A stretch of 64,000 nt of DNA from Thermoflexales bacterium (GTDB lineage Bacteria; Chloroflexota; Anaerolineae; J036; Brachytrichaceae), in assembly GCA_025056965.1 (NCBI GenBank), contig JANWVF010000006.1, positions 1-64,000 of the forward strand, read 5' to 3'. The position numbers were made by a program, and so were the translations under genes. Shown here one piece after another: positions 28,467-31,396 of the stretch; the first letter of the stretch is position 1; each line of letters opens with the position of its first letter. The notes below the pieces were generated by a model. The model was not told the DNA's origin. It made no database searches and was given only the letters and a program-made list of their open reading frames with translations.

Positions 28467-28670
28467 CTATTCCGACTGCGCAAACTTCATGCTTTGCCGT
28501 CGGCTCTTTCGCAATTTCGCAGCGCGCTTGCGCTTATTGATAACGCTGGGCTTCTCGAAATAACGTCGGTTGCGCACCTCAATCAAGATACGGTTGCCTT
28601 GTACAATCTTGTTGAAGCGGCGCAGCGCGGACTCAAACGTTTCGTCCTCTTCGACTACTACTCGAGCCAC
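28467..28670 (-). CDS. rpsU: 30S ribosomal protein S21
   Basis: ARVVVEEDETFESALRRFNKIVQGNRILIEVRNRRYFEKPSVINKRKRAAKLRKSR. Confidence 0.95.
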   Translation of the reverse strand: MARVVVEEDETFESALRRFNKIVQGNRILIEVRNRRYFEKPSVINKRKRAAKLRKSRRQSMKFAQSE

Positions 28671-28745
28671 TCAATCACCTTCTTTCACTCATTCGCTTAT
28701 CAGCTTTGTGTGACAGTGCGAATTATACTGACTTGCTGATGGCTG

Positions 28746-29873
28746 TCAATGCTGGTGCGCCTGGTGCGCTTCGACGCCGGCGCAATCGCGATAGGCATGG
28801 CCTAACGCGGCGAAGACCCACAGCGGTAGTCCGCCGGCAGGCGTCTCCGACCCGTTGATCGTCACACGCATCTGCGTCGGGATGTGCGGCACGCGCAGGC
28901 CGTCCATGGCGGTGTAATCCAGGTAGTAAGCAGTCTTCGAGACGTCGAGCTGCATCCGGCTCGCGCCGATCCGGGTGAGGCGGAAGGCCAACCCGCCTTC
29001 GGTGGCGGGGACGACGCCCGGAGCGCACATGACAAAGCGTGGTGTGCGCACCCAGCCAAGCCGCGCGTCGAACTGCCAACGCAGATCGCGCCGCGCGCCG
29101 AGCGCCGTCGCCAGCCAAACCGGCATGCGACCATAGGCTGCTATCGGCTCACCAAACGGCACTGCTTCCAGAATCTTATGCAGGTCTCCTGCCCGAAAGT
29201 AGGCCGGCGCATCGTGGGGATACATCCGTTGCGCAATCTCATCGAAGCGGACGATCCGCGCGTCGGTTGGCGCCGCGGCCAAGTGTGCTTTGGCAAGTTC
29301 GGCCTCGGAGAAAGCGAAGATCGAAGCCAGATGCTCCGCCAGGGCGTCGAGCGCGTGATCACCGATGACCCCACGGCCGCGATGAAGCCCGCTCAATGTC
29401 CCGCGCAGCTCGCCGTTTTCGGCCGGTTGTAGCTTGTTCTCGCCTTCTAGTACCGAGCGCAGGTCGGCGATGATCGGCAGCCCGCGTGAGCCGACCAGCC
29501 TGCGCCAGTGAGCCGCCTCTTGATCGTTTGGGGTGAGCAGGATCGCGCCCGTGCACTGGTCGAAGATCACCATTTGATCCTCTTGCGGTTTGCCGCCGAT
29601 ATCCACTAATAAGGGCATAACCCGTGCCGCTAGGTCGCGGCAGACGATCCTCACCCATTCGGCGGTCCATGCTCCTTTGAAGCGGATCGCATGCACCGAG
29701 CTGGGATCCATCATTTGTGCCCAATCGCCTTCGCCATCGGGCGCAGCGCGCAACAGGTAATGGGCGATCTTGCGCGCGCGCAATGCCTGTGACAAACTGT
29801 AGGCCAGTACGGATTTGCCGGAGTGGGGTGGTCCTCCGATTAGGATTGCCGGTAACAGGTTGAGTGCGTCCAT
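28746..29873 (-). CDS. csx3: P-loop NTPase fused to Csx3-like domain(s); CRISPR-associated Csx3 long form
   Basis: Walker A ILIGGPPHSGKSVL; LLVDIGGKPQEDQMVIFDQCTGAILLT; Csx3-like PIAAYGRMPVWLATALG...QFDARLGWV and LRVPHIPTQMRVTINGSETPAGGLPLWVFAALGHAYRD; ORF extends to 29972. Confidence 0.7.
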   Translation of the reverse strand: MDALNLLPAILIGGPPHSGKSVLAYSLSQALRARKIAHYLLRAAPDGEGDWAQMMDPSSVHAIRFKGAWTAEWVRIVCRDLAARVMPLLVDIGGKPQEDQMVIFDQCTGAILLTPNDQEAAHWRRLVGSRGLPIIADLRSVLEGENKLQPAENGELRGTLSGLHRGRGVIGDHALDALAEHLASIFAFSEAELAKAHLAAAPTDARIVRFDEIAQRMYPHDAPAYFRAGDLHKILEAVPFGEPIAAYGRMPVWLATALGARRDLRWQFDARLGWVRTPRFVMCAPGVVPATEGGLAFRLTRIGASRMQLDVSKTAYYLDYTAMDGLRVPHIPTQMRVTINGSETPAGGLPLWVFAALGHAYRDCAGVEAHQAHQH

Positions 29874-30895
29874 CGTGCCAGTGGATCGTATCCGTGGGTG
29901 AAGTCGTAAACAAACATCGAGAAGCTGATCGAAGGAGAAGATCGCGTGCGCCGTTTGTGGGTGAGACCCCAACGGCCCTGATCGCCACCTTGGGCGGCAA
30001 GCCGCAGGTGGTGACCTTCGCAGTAGACGAGCTGCTGGATCAGCATATTGCGCTGCACCGCGTGTGTGCCGTGCATCTCGCCCCCAGCGACCCTGCCATC
30101 CAGCGCAGCTTGAGCCTGCTGCGCCAAGCGTTCGACACGCATCCTCCCTACCAGCGCTATGCCGAGCGATTGGGGACGCGCCTGCGTTTTGACTCGTTCA
30201 CCATTCGCGAGCGCTCGAGCGATGTGCCGGATTCCATGAGCGGCGTCGCCAGCGGGCGTGCCATCGAGCGAATAGATGACTTCGCCGCGCCGACTGCCAT
30301 TTGGCTCACCGTGCATCGCCTCATCGCCGCCCTCAAGCGCGAAGGCTATGCCGTCATCCTGTTGGTCACCGGCGGGCCGCGGCTGATCGGCCTGCAGGCG
30401 CTGTCCGCTGCGTCGCTGCTGTTCGACATGCATGATCAGTGCTTGCATCTATACACGCCACCTGAGTTGCGCGAACGCGCCGGACGCGGCGACATTCTCC
30501 ACCGGTCGCCGGATGATCCAGAGGTGCGGCTGGTGCAGGTGCCCCTGCTGCCGATCAACATGATCGCGCCCGGCCTGCAGCAGGCTGCCCTGGCGTCCCC
30601 TCAAGATGTGTTGGCCGACGGTAAGAATCGGTTGAGTCAACGCGATCTGCAGTGCGCGCGGCAAGTCTTGGGACGGTTGACGCCGCGTCAGCGCGAGGTG
30701 CTGCGCGAGTTCGCCCGCAGCGGCGCCGATTCGACCACCGTGGCGCACCGCCTGAACATCACCCAGGCCACGCTCGATTCGCACAAGGCGCGCATCTTTG
30801 AGGAGTGCCGCATCGCCTGGGGATTGCCGCAGAACAAACGCCTGTCGCATCGCTTCCTCTACGAGAAGTTCGGCGGGGTGCTGGAGGCGATCTGA
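29864..30895 (+). CDS. CRISPR-associated CARF-like protein (NE0113/TIGR02584-type) with C-terminal HTH
   Basis: TALIATLGGKPQVVTFAVDELL...VCAVHLAPSDPAIQRSLSLL; LVTGGPRLIGLQALSAASLLFDMHDQCLHLYTPPELRERA; LTPRQREVLREFARSGADSTTVAHRLNITQATLDSHKARIFEECRIAWGL; exact start uncertain (track start is GTG 29864). Confidence 0.72.
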   Translation: MRPSCQWIVSVGEVVNKHREADRRRRSRAPFVGETPTALIATLGGKPQVVTFAVDELLDQHIALHRVCAVHLAPSDPAIQRSLSLLRQAFDTHPPYQRYAERLGTRLRFDSFTIRERSSDVPDSMSGVASGRAIERIDDFAAPTAIWLTVHRLIAALKREGYAVILLVTGGPRLIGLQALSAASLLFDMHDQCLHLYTPPELRERAGRGDILHRSPDDPEVRLVQVPLLPINMIAPGLQQAALASPQDVLADGKNRLSQRDLQCARQVLGRLTPRQREVLREFARSGADSTTVAHRLNITQATLDSHKARIFEECRIAWGLPQNKRLSHRFLYEKFGGVLEAI

Positions 30896-31100
30896 CATGG
30901 TCAAGAGGACTATGCCATGTGCCAGCCAGTTTGGCGTCAAGGATCACTGTGAAGTCTTTCATAGCTAACCAGGATGCCCCTGGCGATGATCCGAAGTAGC
31001 TTGGGTAGCGAGCGCACGGGAAGACCGGCAAAGATTGACGTGCCTGAAATTGCTCAGTGGAGTGTTGTCTGCGACGAATAGTGCGTGTTGGCCTAACTTG

Positions 31101-31171: not shown

Positions 31172-31396
31172 ATCGTTATCTACATCATCGAACAGCCGGA
31201 ACGCACTTGCATCCCATGCCCAGGTTGGATTGACGACCTATTTCGAGAGCTCGTCGAAAGAGGTATGCATCTTTTCTTGATACATGTGTCGGAGTAACTC
31301 CCTCCGACGCTTCTGCCCTAGTATCTGCCCTGGCCTGAACCGCGCCAACGTCGGTGAGTTGTCGCGTGAATGCGAAACGCGCTGTTGGAAGTCGGT

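Follow-up and report, generated by a model that had tools for sequence, protein, structure and literature searches.

Csx3 (Crn3) is established as a ring nuclease that cleaves cA4. The cleavage site of AfCsx3 is composed of a D69 face (G45, R46, D69 and R71) and an H60 face (H57, H60 and H80); the mutants D69A and H60A are inactive, and H57 and H60 are absolutely conserved in Csx3 (PMC7371418). AAA fusions of Crn3 are known and have been described as 'of unknown function' (PMC12409355; PMC7371418), and PfCsx15 provides a case of an orphan type III accessory with a changed function, acting as a cA4 sponge and not as an enzyme (PMC13148439). Here we analysed a 64-kb stretch of DNA (the window), lying in an 84,168-bp contig (C69) of a 3.13-Mb metagenome-assembled genome (MAG, G000; 99.38% complete) of a hot-spring bacterium, in which two divergent genes encode an AAA-Csx3 protein and a CARF-HTH protein. 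On balance, we favour the view that these two genes, now alone here, form the regulatory half of a cyclic oligoadenylate (cOA) signalling locus of type III CRISPR, in which AAA-Csx3 would bind cA4 without cutting it and CARF-HTH would respond to cOA.

The minus-strand gene (positions 28746–29873) encodes a protein of 375 amino acids that matches the PADLOC profile PDLC01059 (E 5.3e-88) and is modelled by AlphaFold with a pLDDT of 90.5. The profile covers residues 38–406 of 408 in a longer reading of the ORF, including both the P-loop and the Csx3 regions, and this full-length match places the protein in AAA-Csx3 (PADLOC C3a67). The ATG at 29873 is the better start, since the starts of relatives align there and the length is then as in relatives; the TTG at 29972, from which the gene had been read in the first-pass annotation, is less likely. 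The P-loop NTPase domain (about residues 1–200; 29274–29873) carries the Walker A motif GGPPHSGKS near 29811–29837, whose P, G and K are invariant or nearly so across 36 members of the family. Foldseek matched this part, with weak scores, to CTP synthetase, GPN GTPase, MeaB/HypB and MobB, and by these scores its predicted fold resembles SIMIBI-type and kinase-like NTPases. It is followed by Csx3-like domain 1 (about residues 201–290; 29004–29273) and Csx3-like domain 2 (about residues 291–375; 28749–29003), for which profile–profile comparison with hhalign gave probabilities for Csx3 of 94% and 99%, respectively, against 0.1% for the P-loop control. The family profile also matched five AfCsx3 structures at E ~1e-13, with a match that runs through domain 2 (PDB 6vjg/6yud/3wzi), the C-terminal strands of which are missing throughout the AAA-Csx3 family. 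Csx3 was absent among the 50 Foldseek matches shown for the model, where the P-loop part dominates, and the Csx3 identity therefore rests on the profiles. The first-pass description of a P-loop NTPase joined to two Csx3-like segments thus holds; the Csx3 signatures noted there mark real Csx3 folds, whereas the catalytic histidines of Csx3 are gone. Adjoining this gene, on the same strand at about 28490–28680, a short ORF resembles ribosomal protein S21, as judged from its sequence only.

The plus-strand gene (29957–30895), which judging from its relatives starts at about GTG 29957, encodes a protein of ~312 amino acids (AlphaFold pLDDT 91.3) that matches PDLC01855, the CARF3 family in PADLOC, with an E-value of 3.6e-74. 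The Cas_NE0113 profile (PF09623) matches the protein at E 2.9e-15, and the best Foldseek matches of the model are to two Crn1 ring nucleases, Sso2081 and Sis0455, at ~1e-7 (for Sso2081, E 1e-7 and TMt 0.70), followed by Cad1, Cam1 and Csa3, which together identify the Rossmann domain at 29957–30556 as a CARF domain of Crn1-like fold. The C-terminal DNA-binding helix-turn-helix (30677–30802) is of the LuxR/NarL (GerE) type, with matches to PF00196 (E 2.8e-6) and to NarL structures (1je8, profile E 7e-9). A CARF-like Rossmann domain with a C-terminal HTH is what the first-pass annotation had described, and the Foldseek comparison that it had proposed as a check is among the evidence that confirms it. 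In a profile alignment with Sso2081, the Thr10/Ser11 phosphate-binding motif of Crn1 (reference motif, PMC10018336) is not kept and is replaced by Gly/Lys: TLGTSP of Sso2081 aligns with TLGGKP in the window, and most CARF-HTH members have TLGGQP. Loss of this motif would fit a sensor for transcriptional control.

Between the ATG of AAA-Csx3 and the start of CARF-HTH lie ~83 bp (29874–29956), a presumed shared control region. A survey of 399 genomes of the window's phylum found AAA-Csx3 in 49 (one of them, G310, by a weak partial match), and in 47 of the 49 listed copies a CARF-HTH gene is divergent and no more than 400 bp away; for the other two, CARF-HTH was not matched on their contigs. Cas10 scored over the Pfam cut-off in 44/49 carriers versus 73/350 other genomes (odds ratio 33, Fisher p 2e-21, uncorrected for relatedness) and lies within 12 kb of 30 of the 49 copies. 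Within the window's own family, the pair immediately precedes Cas10 and RAMP genes in three genomes (G037, G262 and G283). The first reading had correctly recognised that the genes are divergent and that they are affiliated with type III systems. The conserved short divergent spacing suggests that an autoregulated shared control region is plausible; no conserved operator-like palindrome was found in the gap.

Pairs acting at a distance from Cas10 seem to occur: in four genomes (G068, G050, G148 and G351) the pair lies 190–370 kb from the nearest detected Cas10, and in two of these (G068 and G351, ~190–220 kb) it is adjoined by Csx15 and a CARF-PD(D/E)XK gene. Ancillary islands at L131:8995-11546 and L132:8046-10383 consist of Csx15, the CARF-PD(D/E)XK effector, CARF-HTH and AAA-Csx3, with the nearest detected Cas10 ~190–220 kb away. 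On the 432-kb contig that carries the pair in G088, no Cas10 was found, and the scanned ORFs neighbouring the pair had no defence-family match. In G124 the AAA-Csx3 pair is broken; it occurs there (L118:5632-11208) with a CRISPR-like array, a ThsB-like TIR protein and a CARF-PD(D/E)XK effector, in a genome in which no Cas10 was detected. A close relative of the pair (AAA-Csx3 67% identical) was seen on a contig labelled Terriglobia (L136), which is probably a mis-binned Chloroflexota contig.

The evidence supports the view that the window pair stands away from any cas locus. As the first reading of the 64 kb had reported, the window contains no array, Cas10 or RAMP gene that could be found, and the whole 84-kb contig gave no Cas10 or RAMP match, so that a type III locus directly beyond the window, which would have made this an ordinary accessory pair, was not found there. 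Genome-wide checks were made by family, protein and pattern searches and on sampled stretches of the MAG. They returned no Cas10 with PF22335 at E≤1, no Cas10 with the G037 protein as query (best E 0.09) and, in a pattern search for one repeat type, no array of GTTTCAAT repeats; a single contig of the bin, C143, bears RAMP genes. It is nonetheless a serious prospect, if short of an even chance, that a type III locus lies elsewhere in the genome, is missing from the MAG through an assembly gap, and is served by the pair in trans. CRISPR loci break assemblies, the III-D operon of the sister species SKYG71 is itself split at a contig end, and the four genomes with distant pairs, including the two with adjoining effector genes, provide parallels. 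The completeness of the MAG argues against such a locus, as does the failure to find Cas10, RAMP genes besides those of the mis-binned-looking C143, or the array searched for, although 99% completeness can still miss a CRISPR locus and a divergent Cas10 could escape such searches.

The closest relative found is in Candidatus Roseilinea sp. SKYG71 (contig L135), with an AAA-Csx3 that is 77% identical. Next to the pair there comes a CARF-type effector gene, a homologue of the CARF-PD(D/E)XK gene of G037, and then Cas10 and III-D RAMPs; a type III location is usual for AAA-Csx3, not required, and is seen in SKYG71 and not at the window. DNA homology between the window and L135 is confined to 28774–30960, which is the pair alone, and stops right after the CARF gene. 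A test for an empty site in same-genus genomes yielded no clean insertion site: only a neighbouring enolase-family gene was common, and gene order was not kept.

This abrupt end of homology, together with the failure to find Cas10 and the precedent of the broken pair in G124, is what would be expected if the pair were a decaying remnant left after the loss or relocation of a type III operon. In the CARF gene, moreover, changes on the window branch exceed those on the sister branch (32 vs 12 with L136 as outgroup, 18 vs 11 with G262), a surplus compatible with a possible mild relaxation of constraint. Decay is nonetheless less likely than not in our estimate, given that both reading frames are intact, that dN/dS to the sister genes is low (~0.20 for AAA-Csx3 and ~0.11 for CARF), and that the window deviates at 3/71 and 4/49 of the highly conserved columns, no more than Cas10-bearing relatives do. 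The first-pass annotation had offered a choice between a solo cOA-responsive regulator/eraser module and the remnants of a distant type III locus. Of this, the detachment is supported and the eraser is not. We give roughly equal odds to a working module on its own and to a pair that is either a remnant or the partner of a locus missing from the assembly.

C143 carries tandem cas7, csx19 and a TIGR03986 RAMP, which make up the end of a III-D operon. From its first base, it overlaps the SKYG71 cas contig, also from its first base, by exactly 141 bp (C143/L112 1–141, L135 1–141), which is also the k of the assembler, to judge from the name of the contig (k141_...). Joining C143 to L135 restores a single 505-aa cas7 frame, the RAMP of C143 is missing from the SKYG71 bin, and among the bins tested the end sequence was found only in L135 and C143. 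The other half of L135 is 82–86% identical to, and syntenic with, contig C95 of the window's genome, and L135 is therefore not a stray contig of that genome; C95 diverges from L135 well before the cas locus. Given the overlap, the restored frame and this missing RAMP, the simplest account of C143 is that it comes from the sister species and was mis-binned, which would probably leave the window's genome without type III genes of its own except the pair. The III-D operon on C143 was accordingly discounted as a same-genome partner. That C143 truly belongs to this genome, with a III-D operon at another site and split from the pair, is improbable on this evidence, even though it was binned there and the two genomes are too close to be told apart by GC and tetranucleotide composition. 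Just after the pair, a 38-bp non-coding stretch of the window (31323–31360) matches, at 89%, the final part of a vapB-like antitoxin gene from C143, and is a possible VapB remnant.

The catalytic residues of Csx3 were surveyed in both Csx3-like domains of 36 AAA-Csx3 proteins (Csx3 numbering). In domain 1, G45 is present in 35/36, R46 in 32/36 and D69 with R71 in 27/36, one or other of the last two being missing in 9/36; in domain 2, G45, P48 and W50 are present in 36/36, and Gln stands at the D69 position in 24/36. At H57, H60, D69, R71 and H80, the window protein has A,-,D,R,F in domain 1 and H,R,Q,H,- in domain 2, such that neither domain holds the full catalytic set. Domain 1 retains GR...FDxRLG (G45/R46, D69 and R71) without H57, H60 or H80, and domain 2 is without H60, D69 and R71 and has Gly in place of R46. 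An active cA4 phosphodiesterase, making the pair a sensor plus an eraser as the first-pass annotation had it, is thus very unlikely: Csx3 is an established ring nuclease and D69 and R71 are retained in domain 1, but H57 and H60 do not occur together in either domain of any of the 36 members, and Allocoleopsis keeps a stand-alone Crn3 intact while the adjoining AAA-fused Csx3 is degenerate. At L128:7251-8558 and L130:7299-8579, a stand-alone Crn3 precedes an AAA-fused Csx3 in which catalytic residues are changed and which is divergent from a TIGR03985 gene; the catalytic set of the stand-alone Crn3 is intact in L128 and partly changed in L130.

We infer from these residues that AAA-Csx3 would serve as a sensor, a sponge or a switch for cOA, linked to an NTPase, with a regulator that responds to cOA encoded next to it. 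The AAA-fused Csx3 heads may bind cA4 and not cut it, because H57 and H60 are lost, the domain 1 face is kept and the stand-alone Crn3 of Allocoleopsis remains intact. In the favoured reading of the pair as a regulatory half without its locus, a CARF-HTH dimer would bind cyclic oligoadenylate, probably cA4, and alter the activity of the shared promoter. The two degenerate Csx3 domains in tandem would use the retained G45/R46/D69/R71 face to bind cA4, leaving it uncut, and the bound cA4 would be sequestered or would gate the P-loop NTPase or kinase-like domain. Folds and motifs are the basis for the binding of cOA and DNA and for the NTPase activity proposed here. With no resident Cas10, the pair may be silent, may answer the signals of an undetected or incoming system, or may be a recent relic. 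More speculatively, AAA-Csx3 proteins could be cA4 receivers in general, a dead tandem Csx3 head gating the P-loop domain with a divergent CARF-HTH alongside, which at this locus would be free-standing without Cas10 and answer cOA or a related nucleotide from another source.

If AAA-fused Csx3 senses cA4 and does not destroy it, a set of genes named 'ring nuclease Crn3' in databases is mislabelled, and type III systems have a response arm, so far undescribed, that uses NTP and is controlled by a regulator of its own. Since its frames are intact and no Cas10 was detected, the detached pair would allow cOA binding, and action without a resident Cas10, to be tested directly. Both families are already catalogued. 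As far as the literature consulted shows, three things are apparently new: the count of catalytic histidines lost across tandem AAA-Csx3 proteins (a prior remark on inactive fused Csx3 being possible), the quantified pairing of AAA-Csx3 with CARF-HTH, and the finding of a detached pair where the genome has no detectable Cas10.

Among known systems, PADLOC C3a67 'AAA-Csx3' (PDLC01059) shares with the window protein its layout of a P-loop and tandem Csx3-like domains and, in relatives, its link to type III; the window copy differs in having no nearby cas locus, and domain 2 lacks its C-terminal strands in the window's family. The cyanobacterial Csx3-AAA proteins (Csx3', e.g. Slr7080 of Synechocystis pSYSA) likewise fuse Csx3 to a related P-loop domain of unknown function and have a divergent neighbour gene; their Csx3 is however N-terminal and single, and the neighbour is TIGR03985, not CARF-HTH. 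Compared with Crn3/Csx3 (AF_1864), domain 1 has the same fold and cA4-facing motif (G45-R46, D69-x-R71), while the catalytic histidines 57, 60 and 80 are not kept. The regulators Csa3 and Crn1-wHTH also combine CARF with a C-terminal DNA-binding HTH, and the window CARF fold is closest to Crn1; their HTH is a winged helix, whereas that of the window is of LuxR/NarL type, and Ser11 of Crn1 is replaced. Orphan PfCsx15 (PMC13148439) is, like the window pair, a type III accessory without a CRISPR locus; it belongs to a different protein family, and the window holds a two-gene unit.
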